From: Oscillospiraceae bacterium | GTDB lineage: Bacteria > Bacillota > Clostridia > Oscillospirales > Oscillospiraceae | Reading direction: 5' to 3' | Assembly: GCA_017432615.1 (NCBI GenBank) | Contig: JAFRIV010000031.1 | Coordinates: forward strand, 36,284-100,283 | DNA length: 64,000 nucleotides | Part shown: one piece after another, positions 422-26,774 of the stretch | Numbering within the stretch: the stretch's first letter is position 1 | Layout of the letters: each line of letters opens with the position of its first letter | Made by a program: the position numbers and the translations under genes | Notes under the pieces: model-generated | The model's input: only the letters and a program-made list of their open reading frames with translations | The model's database searches: none | Told to the model about the DNA's origin: nothing

Positions 422-482
422 TTCATTTACGCTCCTGTTCCGGCCTTGTGGCCTGTGACACATATTGTTTGTAATACATAAA

Positions 483-512
483 GGCCGCTTGCCTCATACA
501 AGACAAGCGGCC
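483..512 (-). terminator. Rho-independent terminator of the RNA-repair operon
   Basis: A perfect 9-bp stem GGCCGCTTG/CAAGCGGCC has a 12-nt loop. On the minus strand it is followed by TTTATG. It lies 260 nt downstream of the nucleotidyltransferase stop and would end the minus-strand transcript. Confidence 0.7.
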
Positions 513-771
513 CGTGAAGTACCTGATTAGCCTATTCTGGCTGTCGTTTCACAGTTCTGTTCTCTGTCTTATATGGGCATGCCAAAGGACCATGCATCTT
601 GTAATTAAAGCTGCACTGCGAACGACCCTGATATTCGGATTTGAACAAAACGGAGATCTGTCTGAGGATCATTTCTTTTTTCCTTTCCGGGCATAGTCCT
701 GATTTCTGCTTTTACTATACCACCCTGTTTCCGAGAAGTAAAGAAACCCGTAGTATAAAATGCACCTGTCG
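513..771. other. Intergenic stretch, no gene seen
   Basis: Apart from the terminator at its edge, I see no ribosome-binding site joined to a plausible reading frame and no clear RNA structure. A 60-codon plus-strand frame at 514-696 has no Shine-Dalgarno sequence and unusual composition, so it was not called. Confidence 0.5.
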
Positions 772-1524
772 TTATTGAAGCTGGGACAGAAATAGCCGAT
801 CCAGTTCCTCCCACCCACGGTTTGCGTCTTCCGACAGCTGAACAATACGGGAGCGTACTTCTTCGATGCTGCTGTCCAGGTAACGGTTGATGCTCTCGAT
901 TTTTGGAATGGTTTTGATCTCTGGAGCATTCATCTTCAAATTGAGCAGCCGGTCGATATCCGGAAGCAGAGCGGGATCAAGTTCCGTTTCTACCAATTCG
1001 GAAAAGAGCATGGGCGGAGGGGTATCTTTGTCCAGGATCCATCTGCAGGCCAGGACAGGGCGAAGCACATAAAAGTATTTTTTGGCCTTGACCATGTCAC
1101 CCTTCAGGTATTCGCGGTAGTTGCTGCTGGCCATGCTGAGGTAGTGGCTCAGCCCACGCTTGGATGAGAAATACCTCTGCATTACAGCACGGAACTCATC
1201 TGCAAATGCGTTCTCGCGATACACGATCGGCGAAGAGAACCACTCAAACAGTGTCGGGTTCGATGCACGCAAAAGGCGCAGCGTTTTGTCCAGATCCCAG
1301 CCGTTGATATCCAACTCTTCCTCGATGGGCAGTTCAATCACGTCTCTGTTCTTTTCCAAACGCAGATAATCCTCTTTAGGACGGACATAGATAAAACGCA
1401 CGTCGTAGTCACTGTCCGGAGAGGCAAAGCCCCAGGCACGGCTGCCGGACTCAACTGCCAACAGAATCCTTACGTTTTCCTTCTTTTCAATTTCACTCAG
1501 TTTGTATAGAATCGTTTCCCTCAC
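772..1524 (-). CDS. RlaP/YcgL-type nucleotidyltransferase of RNA-repair operons (250 aa)
   Basis: A polymerase-beta-fold nucleotidyltransferase. Near residues 27-41 it shows ESGSRAWGFASPDSDYDV, the G-S motif followed by DxD that binds the metal and NTP in this superfamily. The rest (YLRLEKNRDVIELP, LFEWFSSPIVY, KKYFYVLRPVLACRWI) fits the PF10127 family, called RlaP because it recurs beside RtcB ligases. The inferred role is adding nucleotides to broken RNA ends before or after ligation; the substrate is unknown. The start is a GTG with GGAGG 9 nt upstream. It is the last gene of the minus-strand unit DUF2828-RtcB-RlaP, 146 nt after rtcB. Confidence 0.8.
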   Translation of the reverse strand: MRETILYKLSEIEKKENVRILLAVESGSRAWGFASPDSDYDVRFIYVRPKEDYLRLEKNRDVIELPIEEELDINGWDLDKTLRLLRASNPTLFEWFSSPIVYRENAFADEFRAVMQRYFSSKRGLSHYLSMASSNYREYLKGDMVKAKKYFYVLRPVLACRWILDKDTPPPMLFSELVETELDPALLPDIDRLLNLKMNAPEIKTIPKIESINRYLDSSIEEVRSRIVQLSEDANRGWEELDRLFLSQLQ

Positions 1525-1669: not shown

Positions 1670-2872
1670 TTACTCCGCTGCCTTGAAGTTATAAACCGGG
1701 CGGATTCTCTCGATGATGTAGGCAGTGGGGCCAATCTCGGAGACGATCTCATCAATGGGCTTGTATGCCATAGGCGATTCGTCAAGCGTATCGCTCACGA
1801 CACAGGAAGACCAGATACCCTCCATCTCGGCGGTATATTCATCCATCGAGAGCTGGGCGAACGCCTGCTTGCGGCTCATGATGCGTCCGGCGCCATGTGG
1901 AGCAGAGCAATTCCATTCCTCGTTGCCCTTGCCGCTGCAGATGAGGCTGCCGTCACGCATATTGATGGGGATCAGCAGCTTTTCTCCGGCTTCTGCAGAG
2001 ACAGAACCCTTGCGGAGGATCATCTTCTCGGTATCAATGTAATTGTGAATCGTAGTAAACTCCTCGACCTTCGTCAGCCCCATGCCGCGCAGGATCACAT
2101 CGGTCATGGCTTTGCGGTTGAGCATGGCAAAGTGCTGGGTAATACGCATGTCGTGGATGTAATCTTCAAAAAGCTTTCCCTCTACATAAGCAAGATCCTT
2201 GGGGATGCTGATAGGATGTTCCCTGCGCAGTTCGTTGATGGCGCTCTGGATATCTTTCCAGCGGCCTGCGGTACGGTATTCGGCAATCAGCTCGTCGATT
2301 TGATGACGGGCGCCGCCCCACATAGCAAAGCGGCCCTGATCCTGGTAGTACTTGCATACCTGAGTGCCGAGATGACGGCTGCCGGAGTGGACGACGAGAT
2401 ACAGTTCGCCGTTCTCTCCGCGGTCGACTTCGATAAAATGGTTGCCTCCGCCGAGGGTTCCGATGCTGCGCTTTGCCCGCTCAATGGAAACATAGGGCGC
2501 ACAGCAAAGCTGGTAAAGATTGATTTCTTCGTTGTACGGATGCTCATCCTTGCGGATATTCTGCCCGCAGGGTATTTCCTTACGGATCAGGGCATCCAAG
2601 GCGGCAAAATCTATTTCCTTCTCCGCAAGACGGACCGTCTCCATTCCGCACCCAATGTCCACGCCAACCATACCGGGAACGATTTTATCCTGAATCGTCA
2701 TGGTCGTTCCGATGGTGCAGCCCTTTCCGGCATGCACGTCAGGCATGATGCGGATCTTACAGCCGGCAAAAGCCTCCTGGTCGCAGACGGTCTTGATCTG
2801 AAGTTCAGCAGCCGGCTCGAGTGCAGGTGTATAACAAAGGGCAGTGTTGTGCAGTCCTCGTATTTCTATCAT
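1670..2872 (-). CDS. rtcB: RtcB RNA-splicing/repair ligase (400 aa)
   Basis: RtcB joins 2',3'-cyclic phosphate or 3'-phosphate RNA ends to 5'-OH ends using GTP and Mn2+. The family motifs are present in order: RIMPDVHAGKGCTIGTTM (metal Asp/Cys) near 40-57, GVDIGCGME near 71-79, GTLGGGNHFIEV (metal His) near 137-148, HSGSRHLG near 162-169, and APHGAGRIMSR with the His that becomes guanylylated, in the last third. The length matches the family (about 400-480). The start ATG follows GGAAAGAAG. It is flanked by DUF2828 upstream and the RlaP-type nucleotidyltransferase downstream, a known RNA-repair pairing. There is no archease or RtcA in view. Confidence 0.95.
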   Translation of the reverse strand: MIEIRGLHNTALCYTPALEPAAELQIKTVCDQEAFAGCKIRIMPDVHAGKGCTIGTTMTIQDKIVPGMVGVDIGCGMETVRLAEKEIDFAALDALIRKEIPCGQNIRKDEHPYNEEINLYQLCCAPYVSIERAKRSIGTLGGGNHFIEVDRGENGELYLVVHSGSRHLGTQVCKYYQDQGRFAMWGGARHQIDELIAEYRTAGRWKDIQSAINELRREHPISIPKDLAYVEGKLFEDYIHDMRITQHFAMLNRKAMTDVILRGMGLTKVEEFTTIHNYIDTEKMILRKGSVSAEAGEKLLIPINMRDGSLICSGKGNEEWNCSAPHGAGRIMSRKQAFAQLSMDEYTAEMEGIWSSCVVSDTLDESPMAYKPIDEIVSEIGPTAYIIERIRPVYNFKAAE

Positions 2873-2967: not shown

Positions 2968-4419
2968 TTATGCGGCGATGGGAGCGTACCGCTCCGTATC
3001 GATCACGCTCAGCATGAAGTCGTACGGATTCAGTTCGCCTTCCATGACCATAGAGAAGATCCGGGGACTGTTGCCGGAAACCAGCGCAACACCGCGGCCA
3101 TTCTCTTTTACAGGCTGCTGCTCATGACGGCTGTCAACGTTCCAGAACACGAGGTCCGGGAGTTTGTAGCCGGCAGCCGCATAGCTTGCCCTTGCGTTTT
3201 CGAAGTTCGTCATGGACGAGTTCATCACGCAGTCATCAAACTCCATGTCGGAGATGATATACAGCTTTGCGGGCATCTCAGCCTGAGGGACATGGTTTTC
3301 TACCGCCGCCTGCAGAATCAGATCGAATACCGCCTCCAGGTTGGTGTTGGCGCATTCGTTGAAGGTTCTGCAGTAGCGCACCTTCTCCACGAAATCTTTT
3401 CCCTTGATCTCAACAAGCCGGGGGCTCATGGAGAAGGCGAGGAAATGATTGTGGAATTTGCCTTTATTATGTTCCGCGAAATAAATCGCGAGAGATTGCG
3501 CGACCGCTGCGGGCATCGGCTTGCTGCCCCAGTACATGGAGCCGGAGCCGTCCGCCACGACAAGTGCGTTCTCATCAGTCGTGAAGTCCTCCAGCGTTCG
3601 CCAGGTGACGTCCAGAGACCGGCGTTCTTCCTCGGAGCAATCATACGCGTGCTCGACGAGCTCATAGGGCATCAGCGTGCCGGTGTGCAGCTTCTCCTCG
3701 CCGCGATCTACCTTATCCATGAAAGCGCCGTAACGCTCACCGTCATTGCGAAGGAACGCCTTACGGTACTTGAACATGGCCTTGGACGGCTGCTTGGAGT
3801 AATCGAACGTGTAGTCCTTCTCACGGAGATTGTTCTCGATGATCCGGATACACGCGCGAAGCTTGGTCAGCGCCTTGCGGTAGTCACGGTCGGACAGGCC
3901 GAAGGACTTAGCAACCAGCTTGGCCATGACAACCGTTTCCTGATTGGACGCGTTGACGGAAGGCAGCCACTTCCCAAGCAGGGAAATGTCACCGCTGTTC
4001 TCCAGTGCGGCAAGATCCTCCCGGAACTGCTTTTTCAGCAGCGCCATGGCTTCCTTGCAGCAGGGAGTCTTCAGCAATACAAGAACATCATCCCAGCGGC
4101 CGTACTCAGCGATATAGGGCAGGTTCCTCACAACGGAGCCCTTTTCGTTGGATGCAAGCCAGGAAAGGATGCTCCGGAACACGCGGCGCTCGCCAAGGCC
4201 GCCACGCACGTCACGGGCATAGAACAGGATCTTCATAGCCAGATCAGGATTCTCCGCATACGCCTTCAGGAAGCGGTTGCAGATATCCTGCTCGTCTGCA
4301 CCGCGCAGGGCACCAATGGTGGCGAAAAGATCAAGGCAGTCTTTCCCACTGGTGCGATACGTGACTGCACCGTTTTCGGTATAGGTTTTGTTAGCAGTTT
4401 TCTTCAGGACTTCCAGCAC
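2968..4419 (-). CDS. DUF2828 / TROVE-like plus vWA protein (Ro60-like)
   Basis: The N-terminal two thirds is alpha-helical and matches DUF2828, a TROVE-related module (GAVTYRTSGKDCLDLFATIG, ARDVRGGLGERRVFR, EYGRWDDVLVLL, KWLPSVNASNQET). The last third is a von Willebrand A domain with a MIDAS motif, VADGSGSMYWG. TROVE-vWA proteins such as Ro60/Rsr bind misfolded RNA and Y RNAs and work with nucleases or RtcB. The start is the GTG at 4419, with AAAGGAGG 8 nt upstream; the open frame runs on to 4458 but would then overlap the SD. It is directly downstream of the tRNA-like array and 95 nt before rtcB. An RNA-binding scaffold role is inferred, not shown. Confidence 0.85.
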   Translation of the reverse strand: MLEVLKKTANKTYTENGAVTYRTSGKDCLDLFATIGALRGADEQDICNRFLKAYAENPDLAMKILFYARDVRGGLGERRVFRSILSWLASNEKGSVVRNLPYIAEYGRWDDVLVLLKTPCCKEAMALLKKQFREDLAALENSGDISLLGKWLPSVNASNQETVVMAKLVAKSFGLSDRDYRKALTKLRACIRIIENNLREKDYTFDYSKQPSKAMFKYRKAFLRNDGERYGAFMDKVDRGEEKLHTGTLMPYELVEHAYDCSEEERRSLDVTWRTLEDFTTDENALVVADGSGSMYWGSKPMPAAVAQSLAIYFAEHNKGKFHNHFLAFSMSPRLVEIKGKDFVEKVRYCRTFNECANTNLEAVFDLILQAAVENHVPQAEMPAKLYIISDMEFDDCVMNSSMTNFENARASYAAAGYKLPDLVFWNVDSRHEQQPVKENGRGVALVSGNSPRIFSMVMEGELNPYDFMLSVIDTERYAPIAA

Positions 4420-4555
4420 GGGAAAGACCTCCTTTACAAATGATATAAAACAAGGCACAGTTTGCTGTTTACAGCTTTTTTTGACCGATACATCTTTCTT
4501 TTTTCTAATGGGTTGAAAAGTAAAAAGTGTTGCTGTCTATGCCTTTATTAACTAA

Positions 4556-4624
4556 TCAAGGTGTGCCCCTTGGCGGGCTGTGTCCTGCGCACGGCAGGAA
4601 GGGTTTGCCAAGCCCTGACCTGGA
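4556..4624 (-). ncRNA. tRNA-like element 6 (His-GTG-like, no TTCRA loop)
   Basis: A cloverleaf-like fold is visible. The acceptor TCCAGGT pairs with ACCTTGA at 6 of 7 positions. A D-arm-like hairpin AGGG/CCCT has a GG-containing loop, then TCCTG/CAGGA closes a 7-nt loop centred on GTG. A short GCCC/GGGC hairpin stands where the T arm should be but lacks TTCRA, and position 33 is C rather than T. It is therefore probably not a translating tRNA-His but a tRNA mimic or a decayed tRNA. Confidence 0.5.
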
Positions 4625-4643
4625 CAGATGATTTTGCTGTACA

Positions 4644-4732
4644 CACCTTTTTTACCAAGTAGTTTTCCCATCTGGTAATTGGCCGGTCCAAAGCACGCTC
4701 TTAAGATAATCAGTCTTGAATAAAAGAAGGTG
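4644..4732 (-). ncRNA. Structured element 5, ends paired with one bulge (Y RNA-like shape)
   Basis: The 5' end CACCTTCTTTT pairs with the 3' end AAAAAAGGTG through about 10 bp with a single bulged C. Inside, TTACCAG and CTTGGTAA form a second hairpin. A long terminal stem with a bulge is the shape of Y RNAs bound by Ro60-family proteins, but I could not identify the conserved Ro-binding bases. It occupies exactly one repeat-to-repeat unit. Confidence 0.35.
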
Positions 4733-4759
4733 ATTAACATTGCTGTCAGTGCTTTTCAT

Positions 4760-4905
4760 CGGAATATGAAAGGATCTTTATCCCTCAATCTGCGCCGGAC
4801 TACCAGCCTCATGCGCTGAGGGGATTTTGCGGTGGCTTCAAGATTCTTTTGCCTCACAAACCGATGCGACCGTTTATAGGGCAAGCCGGGCTTCAGTTGC
4901 CCGGG
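4760..4905 (-). other. Long array unit with several hairpins; IS200/IS605-end-like sequence
   Basis: This unit is about 2.4 times normal length. On the minus strand it has hairpins GGGCAA/TTGCCC, a TTGAAGCC...GGTAGT pair around CCTCA/TGAGG, and on either strand a larger imperfect hairpin at about 4780-4825 (TCCCTCA paired with TGAGGGGA). The TTGAAGCC...GGTAG pattern recalls the right ends and guide RNAs of IS200/IS605 elements, but no transposase or TnpB frame is present. It starts immediately after a half repeat. Confidence 0.35.
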
Positions 4906-4926
4906 GCCTTTCAAAAAAGCAAGGCA

Positions 4927-4996
4927 CCATCGAAGCGGGATTCGAACCCGCAGTCGCCGGTTATGAGCCGGCTGCTAAACCATTCAGCTATTCATA
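4927..4996 (-). tRNA. tRNA-Met(CAT)-like element 3 with bulged acceptor stem
   Basis: The anticodon stem GCCGG/CCGGC closes CTCATAA (anticodon CAT), and the T arm GCGGG-TTCGAAT-CCCGC is perfect. The D arm is short (GCT/AGC) with GG in the loop. The acceptor pairs TATGAA with TTC(G)ATG only if one G is bulged. A bulged acceptor suggests it may be a poor aminoacylation substrate. It could be a degenerating tRNA-Met/Ile2 or a deliberate tRNA mimic; automatic tRNA finders may score it as a weak tRNA. Confidence 0.6.
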
Positions 4997-5028
4997 ATTG
5001 CTGTTAGTGCCTTTCAAGACACATTTTT

Positions 5029-5101
5029 GAATTCATGCGGGATTCGAACCCGCGCCCCCCTGGTCCGAAACCAGGTGCTCTCCAGTAGAGCTAATGGATT
5101 C
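5029..5101 (-). tRNA. tRNA-Arg(TCG)-like element 2 with 8-bp acceptor
   Basis: The acceptor GAATCCAT pairs with ATGAATTC (8 bp, one C-A mismatch), longer than the usual 7. The D arm is GCTC/GAGC, and the anticodon stem CCTGG/CCAGG closes TTTCGGA with anticodon TCG. The T arm is identical to that of the neighbouring Met-like element (GCGGG-TTCGAAT-CCCGC). Discriminator A. It looks close to functional, but the long acceptor and the mismatch are odd, and the context is the RNA-repair array rather than a tRNA operon. Confidence 0.65.
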
Positions 5102-5130
5102 TACAGTTTTGCTGTCTGTGTCTATCATTT

Positions 5131-5206
5131 CAAGATGCCGGTATGGCTCAGCCATCGGTATCGACCGGTTTTACAGTCGACCCTGCTATTCCTCCTTTCC
5201 ATCTTG
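5131..5206 (-). ncRNA. 76-nt tRNA-sized element 1, perfect 7-bp terminal helix
   Basis: CAAGATG at the 5' end pairs perfectly with CATCTTG at the 3' end, giving a 76-nt unit of exactly tRNA size. Inside are CGACT/GGTCG around a loop holding CTGTAAA (GTA reads like a Tyr anticodon) and a compact ATGGC-TGA-GCCAT hairpin in the T-arm position, but no TTCRA. It is not a normal tRNA. It is the first unit of the array after the upstream terminator. Confidence 0.45.
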
Positions 5207-5252
5207 CAAGTTTAAAATAGCATCTCGGAAAGGCTTTTTCATGGAAAAAAAG

Positions 5253-5286
5253 TTGCGAACTCTTCTTTTTCAAAAAAAGTTCGCAA
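5253..5286 (-). terminator. Terminator between the WYL genes and the tRNA-like array
   Basis: TTGCGAACT/AGTTCGCAA (9 bp) is followed on the minus strand by seven Ts. It lies 10 nt after the second WYL stop codon. It would separate the regulatory genes from the array and repair genes, or act as an attenuator. Confidence 0.8.
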
Positions 5287-5295
5287 TTTTTCTGT

Positions 5296-6210
5296 TTATT
5301 TCTGTTCCAATATGGCTGCTTGGCGTTCAAGCCGGTCTCGAATCTGAGAAACCATGGTCTCGGGTTCGAGCACTTTCAGCACTGGGCCGAATGAAAGGAT
5401 TCGGATCAGGATCTCCGTTTCGTCCCCCTGTTTGTAGTTGAGCGTGATGCGGTAGTGTTTGTCTTCGATCCGTTCCGTTTCCTTCTCCAGATCCGTGAAG
5501 TGGAGCATTACACGCTCAAGGGCATTGCGGGTATCAAACAGATCCATGACCAGAGTCTTTTCTCGTTCATTTGGCCGCTGATACTCGCTTTCATCCCAGG
5601 GATCGAGCCGATGCACCGAATCCATACGGGAGAGATTTACGATCAGCGGTTTGCCCCTGAATCCCGTAATCAGCCGAAACTTATCATCCTTCGAAGAGTA
5701 CTCCAGCTTATAGGGAATGCAGATATAGCTTTGCCGGGTGCCGCGATGACCGTGGAAGCGCACGCGCAGCTTTCGCTTCTCATGCATTGCCTGGATAATC
5801 GTATGGAAATGCTCAATGTAGCGCGAATCAGAAAAATCATCTCCGTTTGAATAACGGTCATAATAGACGATCTGGTCTTGGGTAAAGAGCGGCTCCACAT
5901 CTTCCAGGCCTTCTTCGGATGGGGCGAACAGCTGGATCCGCGGGTCAAGCAGGAGCGCCTTAAGCCACTGCTTTTCCAGGGTGGTGAGCGGCAGATGCGG
6001 GGAACGGGTCAGAGGAGTGCCGAAGTTCCGAGTTAGCAGCGGCCAGCTGCCGTCTGTCAGCTTGGCAGGGATAGTGACCAGACTTTCGCCGAAAGCGTTC
6101 TCCAATACAGTTCTGGTTAGTTCCCGCTCAGTCAGGTTGCCTTCGACTGCCTTGGTGAGGATAGCGGATACCGCCTTAAAATACGAACCGTAGATTTCAG
6201 AGAAGATCAT
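5296..6210 (-). CDS. WYL-domain protein (304 aa)
   Basis: The central part is a WYL domain (KRKLRVRFHGHRGTRQSYIC, IPYKLEYSSKDDKFRLITGF), an Sm-like fold that binds nucleic acid or nucleotide ligands and regulates defence and repair loci. The C-terminal part resembles the WCX extension (HYRITLNYKQ, LSFGPVLKVLEPE). The N-terminus shows no clear HTH. The start ATG overlaps the stop of the first WYL gene by 4 nt, so the two are translationally coupled. It is a likely partner of the longer WYL regulator in controlling the RNA-repair locus. Confidence 0.85.
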   Translation of the reverse strand: MIFSEIYGSYFKAVSAILTKAVEGNLTERELTRTVLENAFGESLVTIPAKLTDGSWPLLTRNFGTPLTRSPHLPLTTLEKQWLKALLLDPRIQLFAPSEEGLEDVEPLFTQDQIVYYDRYSNGDDFSDSRYIEHFHTIIQAMHEKRKLRVRFHGHRGTRQSYICIPYKLEYSSKDDKFRLITGFRGKPLIVNLSRMDSVHRLDPWDESEYQRPNEREKTLVMDLFDTRNALERVMLHFTDLEKETERIEDKHYRITLNYKQGDETEILIRILSFGPVLKVLEPETMVSQIRDRLERQAAILEQK

Positions 6211-7442
6211 GTTTTCTCCCCTCCCCGATACATCTCGGCCATGCGCCGCACATCCCCGTAGAACCGGTCGACAGCGAACTTGTTGTCGCTCTCAAAGCAG
6301 ATCACCCGACCGATGAAACTGCGTGCCCAGGTCAGCAGCTCTCCGGCATCATAAACGTCAGCAACGAACTTGTACGTATGCTCGTCGAGCATTTCGATCT
6401 GCCCGTGCCGCTTCTCACGCTCCAGCCGGTCAATGATATAGCCTTCTTCATCGCCCACATGCAGCGTGAGTTCCACGTGGTCAACACTGTAGTCGCCTCC
6501 GGTGGAAACACCCCAGAGGTTTTCATCGAACTTGTCTGCAAAGCCCTCGTATTTTTCATGTCGCGATTCGACCGGGCCAGGCGTAATAGCGCGGATATTA
6601 TCAAGTCGAAAAAACATCGGCTTACGGAACTTGTAGTGGAAGGCAAGCAGATATTCCCGTCCGGTCTGTGTGCTGATATAAAAACGCAGCGGATAGACCC
6701 TGTGCTCATGTTCTTCGTCTTTGCGGACGCTGAAATTGACGATATCGATGCAGCGTTTTTCCTTCATGGCGCAGAGTGCATCATACAGGATCTGCGTATC
6801 CAGTGTATGGAGCAGATAGTGGTGCTTATAGCTGAAATGCTCAGGAGCCTCAGCCTGCCGGTCAAGCAGATAGGATCCGACCACGCCGAACGGCGCCTCT
6901 TCGGAGAAGAAAGCAGTCGCATCTTCCCAGGAGGGAAGATCGACCTTATCCTCAGCAAGGCGGAAGTACAGAAAACGGCCATGCTTCTCGTCCTGAAGGA
7001 TCCCCAAATCCGTGTATTCTTTCAGCTTTTTGCGAACAGTGGACTCATCGATCTCAAAGGGAGTCTCGGTATGGGAAAGATAGTCTGTCACACCATCGGT
7101 GATTTCACCCACGCTGCGGGCAGCGCCGTCAGCAAGGATATCCAGGATACAGAAATGCAGTACGATATCCTTGTCAGTGAAGCTCTTTGCTTTCCAGGCG
7201 TTGTGCAGCGGATTGAATGTAACGCTGCGGTTGTCCACGGAGATGAAGACGTTTTTCCCCTCGGCAGTGTGCCGGAAGGCCATATAGCCGCCCAGCCAGC
7301 TTTCGATACGGCGGCGCTCATCATCATAGGAGCGGGCGCTCTTCTTTTTGTAATCCTCACGGCTCTTAAAGCCGTACACATAGAAATCCCGCATGTAGTC
7401 GCGGATCTTTTCAAAGCTCTTGATCAGTTCGCTGTAGGCCAT
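6207..7442 (-). CDS. WYL-domain transcriptional regulator with N-terminal winged helix (411 aa)
   Basis: Residues about 95-165 look like a winged helix (FTDKDIVLHFCILDILADG, STVRKKLKEYTDLGILQ). Residues about 215-300 form the WYL domain (KEKRCIDIVNFSVRKDEEHEHRV as two stretches; YPLRFYISTQTGREYLLAF). A WCX-like C-terminal part follows (VELTLHVGDEEGYII...). In sequenced RtcB systems WYL proteins replace the sigma54 activator RtcR as control elements; that role is inferred here. AGGAGGTGA lies just before the ATG. It overlaps the next WYL gene by 4 nt and starts 34 nt after the ATPase stop. Confidence 0.87.
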   Translation of the reverse strand: MAYSELIKSFEKIRDYMRDFYVYGFKSREDYKKKSARSYDDERRRIESWLGGYMAFRHTAEGKNVFISVDNRSVTFNPLHNAWKAKSFTDKDIVLHFCILDILADGAARSVGEITDGVTDYLSHTETPFEIDESTVRKKLKEYTDLGILQDEKHGRFLYFRLAEDKVDLPSWEDATAFFSEEAPFGVVGSYLLDRQAEAPEHFSYKHHYLLHTLDTQILYDALCAMKEKRCIDIVNFSVRKDEEHEHRVYPLRFYISTQTGREYLLAFHYKFRKPMFFRLDNIRAITPGPVESRHEKYEGFADKFDENLWGVSTGGDYSVDHVELTLHVGDEEGYIIDRLEREKRHGQIEMLDEHTYKFVADVYDAGELLTWARSFIGRVICFESDNKFAVDRFYGDVRRMAEMYRGGEKT

Positions 7443-7476: not shown

Positions 7477-8223
7477 TTATTTCTCTTCTAAAAGGATACG
7501 CAGCATCCTGTCCGGGTTCACCAGGAAGTCTTTTGTTACTTGAAAGTGTTCGGTGTCCTGATACTTCACGTGTTCAAGGCCTTTATCGGAAAACTGAATG
7601 ATATCCGAATCCGGCAATGTGATCAAAATCGGGGAATGGGTGGATATTATGAACTGGGCGCCTTGGGTGGCCAAGTCATGTATCTCGGCCATAAGGCGCA
7701 GCATACGCATAGGAGAAATGGCAGCCTCAGGTTCATCCAGAATAAATAAGCCGTCTGGAGAGAAACGGTTTTCAACAAGGGCCAGAAAACTCTCCCCATG
7801 TGAAAGCTTGTGCAGTGACTGCCCTCCGTAGGATCCCAACACTTTGCTGTCCATCGTGTCCAGATACGAAGCGGCGTTGTAGAAGCTTTCAGCCCGAAGA
7901 AAAAAACCATCATAGTGGCGGCCGACGCCTCGCACCAGGTGTATATGTTCATGCAGTGTCGAATGGGAATCAGCAGTCGAGAAGCTGTAGTTTCTTGTTC
8001 CGCCTTCCGGATTGAATCCTGCAGCAATCGCGACGGCCTCAATCAGTGTCGACTTTCCGATTCCATTCTCCCCGACGAAAAAAGTTATGGGCTTTGAGAG
8101 CAGGATGCCTTGTTCCTGGATGATCTGCTTTATGGCGGGAAGACTCGCAAAGTATTCCGTTTTCGGAATATCTTCATCAATACGGATCTCCCGGATATCC
8201 AGTGTATTAAAACTGTCTGCCAT
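7477..8223 (-). CDS. AAA family (ABC-type) ATPase, SMC/RecF-like fold
   Basis: The Walker A motif FVGENGIGKSTLIEA is near residues 51-65 (numbering from the ATG at 8223). LSHGESFLAL is an ABC-type signature, LFILDEPEAAIS is the Walker B, and FIISTHSP is the switch His. It is a single-domain ATPase of about 248 residues without a nuclease domain. Such stand-alone ATPases occur in defence and repair operons. It lies 5 nt after the zinc-ribbon stop and 34 nt before the WYL gene, so it is probably co-transcribed. A GTG 12 nt further upstream is an alternative start. Confidence 0.8.
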   Translation of the reverse strand: MADSFNTLDIREIRIDEDIPKTEYFASLPAIKQIIQEQGILLSKPITFFVGENGIGKSTLIEAVAIAAGFNPEGGTRNYSFSTADSHSTLHEHIHLVRGVGRHYDGFFLRAESFYNAASYLDTMDSKVLGSYGGQSLHKLSHGESFLALVENRFSPDGLFILDEPEAAISPMRMLRLMAEIHDLATQGAQFIISTHSPILITLPDSDIIQFSDKGLEHVKYQDTEHFQVTKDFLVNPDRMLRILLEEK

Positions 8224-8228
8224 AATCG

Positions 8229-8462
8229 TCACCAATCTTCATCCAGCAGAGCAGACAGCCCTTCAGCCTCATCTGCCCATGACGGATCATACTTGGATCT
8301 GCCCATCACCGACTGGCAGTCGGGGCAGACCTTATACGGCTTGCTGTATGCGGCACCGCACCGGGAACAGATATATTCATCTGCCTTGAACAAATGCGTC
8401 TTCTGAATCCATTGTACGGCAACCGGTTCTTTTCCTTTCTTGAAAAGGCCGAATAATCCCAT
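8229..8462 (-). CDS. Small zinc-ribbon protein (77 aa)
   Basis: Two CxxC knuckles, CSRCGAAY and CPDCQSVM, define a rubredoxin/zinc-ribbon fold at about residues 32-52, framed by a basic N-terminus and an acidic, Trp-containing C-terminus (LLDEDW). Function unknown; small zinc ribbons often serve as adaptor or metal-binding proteins. It is first in the minus-strand run ZnR-ATPase-WYL-WYL, and its upstream leader is nearly the same as that of the desulfoferrodoxin gene, hinting at shared control. Confidence 0.7.
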   Translation of the reverse strand: MGLFGLFKKGKEPVAVQWIQKTHLFKADEYICSRCGAAYSKPYKVCPDCQSVMGRSKYDPSWADEAEGLSALLDEDW

Positions 8463-23644: not shown

Positions 23645-26600
23645 TCAGAAGATATAGCAGCCGCAGCGCCCCGCTTCCTTGACGTGGTACAGCGCGGTAT
23701 CTGCATCCTTGAAAATATCGCCTTCCGGATTCTCACGGTCTGCAAATGCCACTCCCACACTGAGAGAGGTTGGCGGCAGATCATCCTTCGGTTTCTGCAG
23801 CATCACGTTGGCCTGGTCGATCTTCCGTTTGACCTGTTCCCGCATGGAACTGTCCACATTGGTCATGATCACAACGAATTCATCCCCGCCGAGACGGAAA
23901 ACCAGATCTGTGGAACGGAAGCTGTATGTCAGCACTTCCGCCACATGCTTCAAAACCAGATCGCCTACATCATGTCCGTACGTATCATTGATACCCTTGA
24001 ACCTGTCCACATCCACCAGGAGGAGAGCGTTTCTGGACATATCCAGATCGTTGCGCATGAAGTTGTATGCACTGCGGTTATACAGTCCTGTCAGGGCGTC
24101 GTGCATATTGCCGTAGGTCAGCCGTTCCTGGGTCCTCCTGTTCTCTTCAAAAATTGCGTTATAGGTTTCTGAAACAAAGCGCAGTTCCTCTGCGCCTGCA
24201 GGAGGCACTGTCTCTTTGGCCTTCATCTGTTCAACCATACGGGAGAGCGGTTTCCGGATCCATCCGCTGATAAAAGCCACAATGGCAAGGACTACCGCCA
24301 GCAGGACCACGGTTAATACGGTCTGGATGCTGAGCAGGACGTTCATGCGTGTATTCAGGCGAATTCTTTCCCGGTTGGACTCTTCGATCAAATTCTGCGT
24401 ACACAGGCTTGTATTGTCGCGGATCTTCGTTTTACAGTCTTCATATTCATCGCCGTATACCAGTTCCAGCGCCAGCTTTCGTTTCTCTCCTGCCGGACGT
24501 GCTTCATCCTCGGGGCTCAGTTCCCTTTCCCTGAGTACAGCCGGGATCTGTTCCTCGTCGTAGGTCCCTGTGGACAGGATCAGTTTCATTGCCTGATACT
24601 CATCGTCCATCAGCTCGTTGGACAGTCTCAGTGCCGTGGAAAGATGCTCGTAGGCGGCGCTGTCCCGCGTTATCATTGTTTCCAGATTGGCGACTGCCTT
24701 GTCTCTGCGCCGGGTCTCATTTGCCTCGGTAAAGTAGTTTTGCAGATATTCAAACTCTTCCGTTACCACAAAGCTTCGGACCGACTCTGTCAACATGTCC
24801 GAACCGATTTCCAGATTCGTGGCAGACTGCTGCGCGAGGATGTAGCGCTCGCTGGCCTGCTCCATACGCAGATATCCGTGCGTCACCATGGAATCGGCGG
24901 CATATAGTGCGGTAGCCACAAGGAAAGCCACGCACACAAACAGGATACTCGCCTTCTTCATGGGAATGCTCAGTTTTTCGCTCCAGCGCTTGAGGGGAGA
25001 CAGTCTCTCCATTCCGAAGTTTTCTCTCCCGGTTCTGCGCTGTTTTATCTGTGCTGTCTCTCCTGCAGTCTGTTTCTGCTGCGCCTCCTGCAGAAAAGCT
25101 GAAAACTTTTCCCCGGGGACGGGAGGTGAAAAATAATAGCCCTGCACCATGTCACAGCCGATCTCTTTCAGGGCTGTTATCTGCTCCTCTGTTTCCACAC
25201 CCTCCGCCACGACCGGTGCGCCGATATGCCGGGCAATCTCAAGAATGATCTCCAGCATATGGATATCCTTATCCCCGGCAAAAGCAGTGCTGGTAAACTT
25301 CATATCCAGCTTCAGCACATCGATAGGGAGCGTAGAGAGCATATTCAGTGACGAATAGTCCGTCCCGAAATCATCCATCTCCACCGGAAAACCCATCGAC
25401 CGCAGCCGTTTTACCGTTTCAATGATCTGCTCCGCGTCCTCGGCGTAAGCAGATTCTGTAACCTCTAAATGCATCTCACCGGGCTCCAGCCTGCTCTCTT
25501 CCAGGATATCCAGCAGTGTATAAACGATGTTTGCATCGTACATATCCACGCGGGATACGTTCATAGACACAGGTACGGTGTAACCGAGTTCATCCTTCCA
25601 GATGCGGATCTGTCGGGCGGTTTCCCGCCACACATAATGATCCAGGGCCTGAATGAGGCCGTTTTCCTCAAACAGCGGTATGAATACGCCGGGGCTGATC
25701 AGACCCAGTTCCGGATGCTGCCAGCGTATCAGGGCTTCTGCCCCGGCGAGAAAAGGCTCTTCGGCAGTGATATTGTACTTCGGTTGGAAATAGACCCGAA
25801 ACTGTTTCTCCTCGATTGCCTTATGATAGTCATCGATCAGCCGTTCTGCATACAGTTCAGCCTTGTGCAGGGTATCGTCATAGATGCCGATATTCGGCGT
25901 AAAGCTGTTTCGCACAGAATCGGAAGCACTTTTGGCGCGATCGAAGCGCCGCACCAGCTCCAGCGATTTATCCGCATTGGAGTAGACCCCCATGCGCAGA
26001 CGCACACGGCTGTTGGAGTTTTTCTCATCGGTCAGTCCTGTGGAGGCATTATCCAGAATGGCTTTGTAATCTTCTCTGTGAGGACAGTAAACGAGGAAGA
26101 TATCCGCCTCCCGGCGGCAGACGATCCCCCCCCGATGCCCGAACCATCTCCTGCGCCTTCTCCCCCACACGGCGGAGCACTTCATCGGCATACGCGCGGC
26201 CGTATCGTTCATTGATGATACTGAAGTGGTTGATATCCAGGACGATGGCATCCATCGGGATATCCTTATGGTGCTGGTCGTACTGCTCCGCATAGCTGAA
26301 GAAGAATTCGCGATTGTACAGTCCTGTCAGCGGATCGCGCTCGGTGGACTGGATGATCTGCCGTCCCTCAAACAGTTCGATGGCACGGCGGACCCGCGCT
26401 AAAATGACGCCGGGCTCCGGATACGGTTTCTGGATAAAATCGCTGGCGCCCATATTCAGGCATTCGATTTCCTGGGACTGATCGCCGGAGGCCACGATAA
26501 CAGGGATATCCTGATAAGCCGGTTCTTCCTTGATCCGGCACAGCACCTCCCTGCCCGGCATAACAGGCATGATAAGGTCCAGAATAACAAGGGAAAGGAG

Positions 26601-26774
26601 TTTCTTGTTCTCCTCCACAATATGAAGGGCTTTTTCGCCGTTCTCCGCGAAAATGACCTCATAGTAATTCTCTAAAACCGTCCCCAGTAAAGCGCGATTG
26701 ATTTCTTCATCATCCACAACCAGGATGAGTCGTTTGCCGTCAACGGAATGAAAATTCGCCTGATTGTCCTGCAT
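23645..26774 (-). CDS. REC - degenerate GGDEF - EAL - membrane sensor - GGDEF protein, frame broken at a G8 tract
   Basis: If one base is removed from the G8 run at 26126-26133, one frame of 1042 codons results. Domains: receiver about 10-130 (VVDDEEIN; LDLIMPV), a GGDEF-like fold about 150-290 whose active site is altered (READIF instead of GGDEF), EAL phosphodiesterase about 305-560 (YFQPKYN, GAEALIRW, DDFGTDYSSL), membrane helices near 607-625 and 828-850 around a helical extracytoplasmic sensor, and C-terminal diguanylate cyclase with RLGGDEFVVIM. It would make and break c-di-GMP. As sequenced, the product stops early. The kinase at 26960 and a 43-aa ORF lie just upstream. Confidence 0.85.
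26126..26133 (-). repeat. G8 homopolymer (slippage site) inside the c-di-GMP gene
   Basis: Eight Gs on the coding strand, at the junction where the receiver/GGDEF part and the EAL part lie in different frames. Seven Gs restore the frame (A-S-G-G-I-V instead of A-S-G-G-D-R). It is either a phase-variable switch or a sequencing error. Confidence 0.8.

Follow-up and report, generated by a model that had tools for sequence, protein, structure and literature searches.

The 64,000-nucleotide (nt) stretch of an Oscillospiraceae genome analysed here, hereafter the window (contig JAFRIV010000031.1, positions 36,284 to 100,283; host genome of 2.4 Mb in 50 contigs), carries on its minus strand, at 5206-4451, a tandem array of small RNA units upstream of a gene for a Ro60-like protein of the DUF2828 family. 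Each unit holds a variable insert, tRNA-like in some cases, within a constant frame made of a closing stem of about 7 base pairs (bp) and the motif ACAGCAA immediately inside that stem. The same frame recurs beside related genes in other bacteria and in phages, and we regard the existence of this RNA family and its linkage to DUF2828 as very nearly certain. The closing stem and the phage versions go beyond what an initial annotation of the window had seen.

An RNA frame upstream of DUF2828 genes

Written as RNA, the unit plan is A-AARRYRC-NN-ACAGCAA-insert-GYRYYUU-G, with the two arms pairing, and it describes five units of the array, which also has one divergent member. The initial annotation had placed at least five tRNA-sized units between six copies of a repeat with an ACAGC core. 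Six such cores lie on the minus strand (5115, 5004, 4746, 4640, 4536 and 4468), with the three spacings it gave as 104-111 nt (111, 106 and 104), and a seventh, ACAGCCC, lies at 4581; the cores at 4468 and 4581 fall inside units (U5 and U4, respectively), not between them. A role of the repeat as spacer between units was rejected: it makes up the 5' flank of every unit, against which the 3' arm folds back to close. The array as described stands, with unit lengths of 68-111 nt.

In order along the minus strand, the divergent unit U0 (5131..5206, 76 nt) has the closing stem AAGATG...CATCTTG, no ACAGC and an interior that folds into hairpins; we infer that it belongs to the unit family. U1 (5015..5125, 111 nt) consists of TAGACAC-AG-ACAGCAA, a whole tRNA-Arg(TCG)-like insert and GTGTCTTG. 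Its insert has an acceptor with one mismatch, no CCA and the anticodon loop UUUCGGA, and the outermost of its seven closing pairs is a mismatch. U2 (4920..5014, 95 nt) is built from AAAGGCAC-TA-ACAGCAA, a tRNA-Met(CAT)-like insert with a short acceptor and the anticodon loop CUCAUAA, and GTGCCTTG. Between U2 and U3 lies a linker on the same strand (4757..4919) that fits no unit and contains two G+C-rich hairpins; a similar linker follows the tRNA-Met unit of one relative (L003). U3 (4689..4756, 68 nt; AAAAGCAC-TG-ACAGCAA and GTGCTTTG) encloses a short insert with a 4-bp hairpin and the loop CUGAUUA, U4 (4557..4650, 94 nt; AAAGGTGT-GT-ACAGCAA and ACACCTTG) a structured insert without a tRNA signature, and U5 (4451..4546, 96 nt; AAAGGCAT-AG-ACAGCAA and GTGCCTTG) an A+T-rich insert. 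The innermost closing pair of U5 is G-U, and its end lies 31 nt ahead of the probable start of the next gene. The strict genome pattern is matched in the window by U2 and U3 alone, because U1 has a mismatch and U5 a G-U pair. The pattern AARRYRYNNACAGCAA occurs six times in the 2.4 Mb genome, four of them within the array, and the reversed pattern does not occur, so that the motif exceeds chance.

The frame was followed through relatives of the DUF2828 gene, taken as the best 80 of 125 from genome contigs. Of these, 79 were used, L010 being dropped for having no upstream DNA; L011, L012 and L070 were removed from the first protein list because of a stop early in the matched region. Not all relatives are clostridial by label, as some records read Synergistaceae, Synergistales or Chloroflexi. 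Within 2.5 kb upstream of the gene, 239 5' motifs were found on the gene strand and none on the other strand, and the remaining 914 kb of the relatives' sequence holds 5 and 2. Relatives carrying only ordinary tRNA genes at this place, without the repeat, would have refuted the interpretation of the initial annotation; what was found is at least one unit in 77 of the 79 loci, L032 and L076 having none by the strict pattern.

Pairing of the arms is the most consistent property of these units. A perfect 7-nt partner arm lies 30-180 nt downstream of 227 of the 239 motifs, versus 3.6% with swapped arms, and the base following the 3' arm is G in all 227 units, to rounding. When the 3' arm was chosen blind to pairing, as the first downstream G[CT][AG][CT][CT]TTG (present for 231 of the 239 motifs), all seven positions paired in 224 of the 231, versus 32.1±4.9 after shuffling between units (maximum 49 in 2000 shuffles) and 90.4±7.7 after shuffling within loci (maximum 117). 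Loci contain up to eight units (none in 2 loci, one in 19, two in 22, three in 8, four in 12, five in 8, six in 5, seven in 2 and eight in 1), and 75 of the 150 gaps between units measure 16 nt or less. An identical stem is shared by 10 of 162 neighbouring pairs versus 21.5±4.1 expected, and by 38 of all 379 within-locus pairs versus 50.3±6.5. Neighbours thus share a stem less often than chance predicts, which fits units that fold within one transcript.

The linkage is also visible from genome to genome. A Pfam search for DUF2828 in 398 genomes of the phylum found the gene in 7, the window's own included, and the other six all have at least one perfect-stem unit near it. Among 60 genomes, again including its own, 6 have the gene, and 5 of the 6 show the unit pattern, versus 0 of the 54 without the gene (Fisher P 1.1e-6); G020, which has the gene and no unit match, offers about 0.2 kb of contig upstream of the gene.

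tRNA-like inserts and anticodon loops

Two near-normal tRNAs with identical T arms had been noticed in the array from the outset, and they were recovered by both programs. ARAGORN calls tRNA-Met(CAT) at 4927-4997 and tRNA-Arg(TCG) at 5028-5101, both inserts pass the Rfam tRNA cut-off (57.8 bits for U1 and 46.2 bits for U2 versus 29, with U2 covering only positions 5-66 of the 71 in the model), and both contain the T arm GCGGG-TTCGAAT-CCCGC. At their cut-offs ARAGORN and Rfam found nothing in the array beyond these two tRNAs, and an Rfam search of 4300-5300 at E values up to 10 gave no further match close to a cut-off. That two inserts pass the tRNA cut-off favours a reading in which ordinary or decaying tRNA genes lie in the operon by chance. 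This we consider very improbable, and it was rejected because the closing stem is kept through compensatory changes and the tRNA-Arg insert has no near copy in its own genome, where, apart from itself, the longest match covers 59 of 74 nt at 70% identity (E 1). The inserts also lack CCA, and the same frame holds non-tRNA inserts and occurs in phages.

Inserts that resemble tRNA are of three kinds: normal-order tRNA without CCA (two in the window), permuted tRNA with a closed acceptor, and the isolated anticodon stem-loop. Many inserts belong to none of them. ARAGORN finds a normal-order tRNA in 25 of the 227 units of bacterial relatives, and doubling the trimmed inserts adds 22 more, read as 18 of normal order with an open or short acceptor and 4 permuted; 39 phage and plasmid units give 7 tRNAs by ARAGORN, 6 permuted. 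The permuted units run in the order anticodon-arm-like hairpin (where present), T arm, closed acceptor, D arm. Among long inserts, T arms occur in 43 of 127 from the relatives and 23 of 51 from a viral set described below, versus 0.1 in shuffles.

Short inserts are defined as those under 62 nt. In the viral set, identical inserts were merged and those under 20 nt dropped, reducing 173 to 169. Hairpins of 5 bp with a 7-nt loop occur in 41 of 100 bacterial and 46 of 118 viral short inserts, versus about 12 and 16 in shuffles, and loops of 5, 6 and 8 nt are near chance. Stem-loops with a strict anticodon loop, YUNNNA[AG], are found in 12 of the 100 bacterial (shuffles 0.28, maximum 2) and 26 of the 118 viral short inserts (0.76, maximum 4). 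The commonest viral loop is CUUUUAA, that of tRNA-Lys UUU (10 of 26), followed by CUGUUAA (4), CUUGAAA (3), CUGCUAA (2), CUGCAAA (2) and five others once each, and most of these presumably equal real tRNA loops (Lys, Asn, Ser and Cys among them). Of the 38 strict loops, 28 have U at position 36 and 37 have U or A there, a bias partly explained by the A37 requirement. We consider it highly probable that a good part of the units mimic tRNA.

Phage versions and resemblance to Y RNAs

A tblastn search of 50,697 phage records matched the DUF2828 protein in 667, with 80% or more of the protein covered in 664; 4 plasmids match as well. Eighteen phage and plasmid loci were fetched and 16 counted for the motif, L135 and L137 being left out. 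Around the gene, ACAGC[AG]A occurs 53 times on the gene strand, 33 times with a 6-bp closing stem, versus 7 and 0 on the other strand. A stem-bearing motif is present in 13 of the 16 loci and in none of L144, L148 and L150; L148 has two units with ACAGCAG. Stem sequences vary from phage to phage, and units are found on either side of the gene. Of 13 annotated loci, 8 have annotated tRNA genes and 3 an annotated RNA ligase.

The viral set was drawn, independently of these loci, with profile A3, built from the window protein and 17 others (profile A1 combines it with 37 of the 79 relatives); a viral contig scan with the window protein alone gave no match. A3 matched 518 loci, of which 80 were kept with near-duplicates included, so that the counts are not all independent. 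Outside the gene these 80 loci hold 338 motifs on the gene strand, 173 with a stem, versus 60 and 12 on the other strand, which implies that perhaps a fifth of motifs gain a stem by chance. Stem-bearing motifs occur in 66 of the 80 loci on the gene strand versus 13 of 80 on the opposite strand, and the 750 nt upstream of the gene contain 146 motifs, 96 with a stem, versus 0 on the opposite strand.

In Listeria phage CKA15, CKA15_055 belongs to the DUF2828 family, and the 395 nt preceding it, which have no annotation, contain three units (25551-25498, 25462-25409 and 25393-25291). Their expression is plausible, because the 2 kb upstream of CKA15_055 reportedly hold three highly transcribed non-coding regions, for which Y RNAs are one suggested identity (PMC12282133). 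Two of these have no stated location in the accessible text of that paper, and the sole hot spot with printed coordinates there (26,236-26,727) lies 0.7-1.4 kb from the three units. The very abundant non-coding RNA of this phage was checked and rejected as a unit; CKA15_059 and 060, the open reading frames of the interval 26,236-26,727, are reported to make up 7-34% of all transcripts. In Listeria phage cka14 (L137, about 3475-3966), a segment that matches this interval by coordinates corresponds to a large non-coding RNA, not a unit.

As in bacterial Y RNAs, the 5' and 3' ends of the units, as defined by sequence, pair into a stem. For the protein, PHROG_850 'RNA-binding protein' covers the window DUF2828 product (E 7.8e-135), and NCBIfam has no name for it or for two phage members. 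Comparison of DUF2828 with one TROVE protein by hhalign gave Prob 43 and P 2.5e-4 over the vWA region only; a PDB search with A3 returned two TROVE entries (E 0.34) and one SIR2 protein (E 0.93), and with A1 nothing at E up to 1. An HHpred match to Rsr has been published for a phage member of the family (PMC12282133).

Membership in YrlA (RF02553) was rejected, as the Rfam cut-off was not reached in the window or ten loci, where only tRNA and tmRNA were found. The YrlA model had no match above cut-off in the window's own genome, and across five genomes and 14 controls it gave sub-cut-off matches only, some at own-genome tRNA genes and at least three within 1.4 kb of TROVE genes. An RNA beside the TROVE gene of L155, itself a sub-cut-off YrlA match, has the same order as the permuted units; this topology was not seen in the window, where the tRNA inserts are of normal order. 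A loose scan of four TROVE loci yielded five stem-bearing ACAGC[AG] motifs, two of them ACAGCAA, and by eye the full frame in none. At one TROVE locus (L153, 164-210) a single AAGTAA-C-ACAGCAA...TTACTT hairpin stands beside a YrlA-like RNA, through chance or as a hint of shared origin.

Like the Y RNAs and YrlA that accompany Ro60/Rsr (TROVE) proteins, the units are small RNAs with paired ends that adjoin a Ro-like gene, often with RtcB, and carry a tRNA-mimic domain, of permuted topology in six phage and four bacterial units. Unlike them, they include normal-order tRNA inserts, isolated anticodon loops and tandem arrays, and their protein is DUF2828; ACAGCAA and the 7-bp stem presumably stand in place of the Ro site of Y RNAs. 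Judged by sequence, the units are filed as a Y-RNA-like family and not as YrlA, because the Rfam model is not matched and the Ro kinship of DUF2828 is weakly supported. The paired ends, constant motif, DUF2828 linkage and tRNA-mimic inserts bear out the earlier suggestion of a tandem Y-RNA-like family before a Ro-like gene. The array is a variant of the bacterial Y RNA idea and new as such; the literature search found nothing joining RtcB and DUF2828, and DUF2828 only in plant papers, and an earlier description (Chen et al. 2014; Burroughs & Aravind 2016) is possible. Mycobacteriophage Y RNAs were reported by Chen et al. 2014, as cited in PMC12282133. These and the putative Y RNAs of CKA15 are likewise proposed beside a phage Ro-like gene, just as units lie directly upstream of CKA15_055, but the accessible text names no motif for them.

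The main rival to a decoy function is ordinary Y-RNA function. The tRNA-like domains would then act as a gate to the Ro ring, or link that ring to an enzyme selective for tRNA shape (PNPase, or a modification or processing enzyme), for RNA quality control, with the anticodon loops a mere handle. Rsr is tethered to PNPase by a Y RNA in Deinococcus and tRNA-like YrlA has been published (PMC7790460), and the permuted inserts share their topology with the YrlA-like RNA of L155. However, such a function alone leaves unexplained the arrays of up to 8 units and the isolated anticodon loops of several tRNA identities, among which tRNA-Lys UUU is commonest in the viral set. We view it as possible, on the unlikely side.

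Locus organization and a candidate decoy function

On the minus strand the window locus runs from a WYL pair through a terminator-like hairpin, the array, the DUF2828 gene, RtcB and RlaP to a second terminator-like hairpin. The pair comprises a WYL-domain regulator (6207..7442; Pfam) and a WYL/WCX-domain regulator (5296..6210; Pfam just below both cut-offs, PADLOC WYL 1.1e-13). The hairpins, 3' of the WYL pair and 5' of the array (5253..5286) and 3' of RlaP (482..513), share the caveat that 8 such sites were counted in the region versus 8.0 expected by chance. The DUF2828/DUF7788 Ro60-like protein, with a vWA domain containing DGSGSM (2968..4419; Pfam, PHROG_850), has a probable GTG start at 4419 preceded by AAAGGAGG, and is followed by an RtcB family RNA ligase (1670..2872; Pfam) and the RNA-repair nucleotidyltransferase RlaP (772..1524; Pfam). 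A tRNA gene cluster lies beyond the window edge, past the operon. Upstream of the WYL pair, 7477-8235 encodes a small ABC-type ATPase resembling ATPases of several defence systems. The segment 571-496, 3' of RlaP, reads AAGACA...ACAGAA...TGTCTTG and may be a decayed unit or chance; it was not counted as an extra unit, as it overlaps the terminator-like hairpin and lacks proper spacing.

Across the 79 loci, homologues of RtcB were seen in 56, WYL1 in 50, WYL2 in 51 and RlaP in 10, counts that contig ends limit. The RtcB homologue lies upstream, not downstream, of the Ro-like gene in L008, L021, L027, L035, L036, L042 and L081. In L021, L036 and L042 the 1.5 kb ahead of the DUF2828 gene contain runs of tRNA genes (12, 12 and 4 called), and the last of the four in L042 is a unit. 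The frequency of the two WYL homologues speaks for a sensor, in which the units would serve as bait, their cut fragments reporting RNA damage to, for example, the WYL regulators, which would then induce RtcB and RlaP; control of an RNA-repair operon by damaged tRNAs has precedent (PMC7790460). Against this, a WYL2 homologue was not seen in 28 of the 79 loci, contig ends limiting, and no WYL regulator is named near the gene in the 13 annotated phage and plasmid loci, as judged from annotation only with no search made. A sensor appears improbable to us.

The explanation we favour, at about an even chance, is that the Ro-like protein beside RtcB and RlaP holds the units as decoys for anticodon nucleases. 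It is favoured because some units are a bare anticodon arm, where anticodon nucleases act. Decoys had been among the functions proposed initially, and the isolated anticodon stem-loops, found in a minority of the shorter units elsewhere, lend them indirect support. For the guide and substrate functions proposed alongside, no evidence emerged, no test having been aimed at them. Units would be cut from a single transcript, and the Ro-like protein would bind the stem and ACAGCAA, with the variable domain displayed. The anticodon loops of this ribonucleoprotein could then divert anticodon nucleases, whether they belong to toxins, phages or defence systems, from real tRNAs, and RtcB and RlaP would re-seal cut tRNAs and decoys. 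The phage ribonucleoprotein would be a counter-defence.

Several published findings are relevant here. PrrC acts on tRNA-Lys UUU (PMC10264068), stem-loop substrate analogues of tRNA-Lys appear in a title cited in PMC2610378, and YrlA has been suggested as a competitive nuclease inhibitor (PMC7790460), a paper whose accessible text leaves open the role of Ro60 proteins and Y RNAs in RNA-repair operons. Phage tRNAs that evade anticodon nucleases (PMC10264068) are likewise tRNA-related phage RNAs proposed against tRNA-cutting defence; they are taken there as working tRNAs, whereas the units lack CCA and some are mere anticodon arms. In a literature search on tRNA decoys or sponges against anticodon nucleases in phages, no work on such units was apparent.

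A number of observations weigh against a decoy function. Loops of 9 nt are also in excess in short bacterial inserts, the only set in which they were counted (25 versus 10.9, maximum 18), and no strict anticodon stem-loop is found in 88 of the 100 bacterial and 92 of the 118 viral short inserts. Two of the 26 viral loops, CUUUAAA and CUACAAA, are not known as loops of usual tRNAs. In the window the strict loop is confined to U2, U1 being Arg-type with G37 and U3-U5 having none. Of the 79 loci, 23 showed no RtcB and 69 no RlaP, partly because contigs end, and DUF2828-TROVE homology is weak in the hhalign and PDB tests. Finally, YrlA is reported not to be cut by the nuclease studied in Salmonella (PMC7790460), from which it follows that a decoy need not be sacrificial.

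That the frame also turns up in phages and other bacteria suggests that RNA decoys against tRNA-cutting enzymes may be widespread. At somewhat below even chance, Clostridia and phages may have in common a widespread ribonucleoprotein whose Ro-like protein uses a constant RNA frame to present an exchangeable repertoire of tRNA mimics and anticodon stem-loops, an RNA-encoded antidote to anticodon nucleases with units that can be swapped and multiplied. The frame provides a simple motif for annotating an RNA family missed by the Rfam models here, beside a gene with homologues in so many phage records. If the units are indeed decoys, loop identity should predict the nuclease that is countered.
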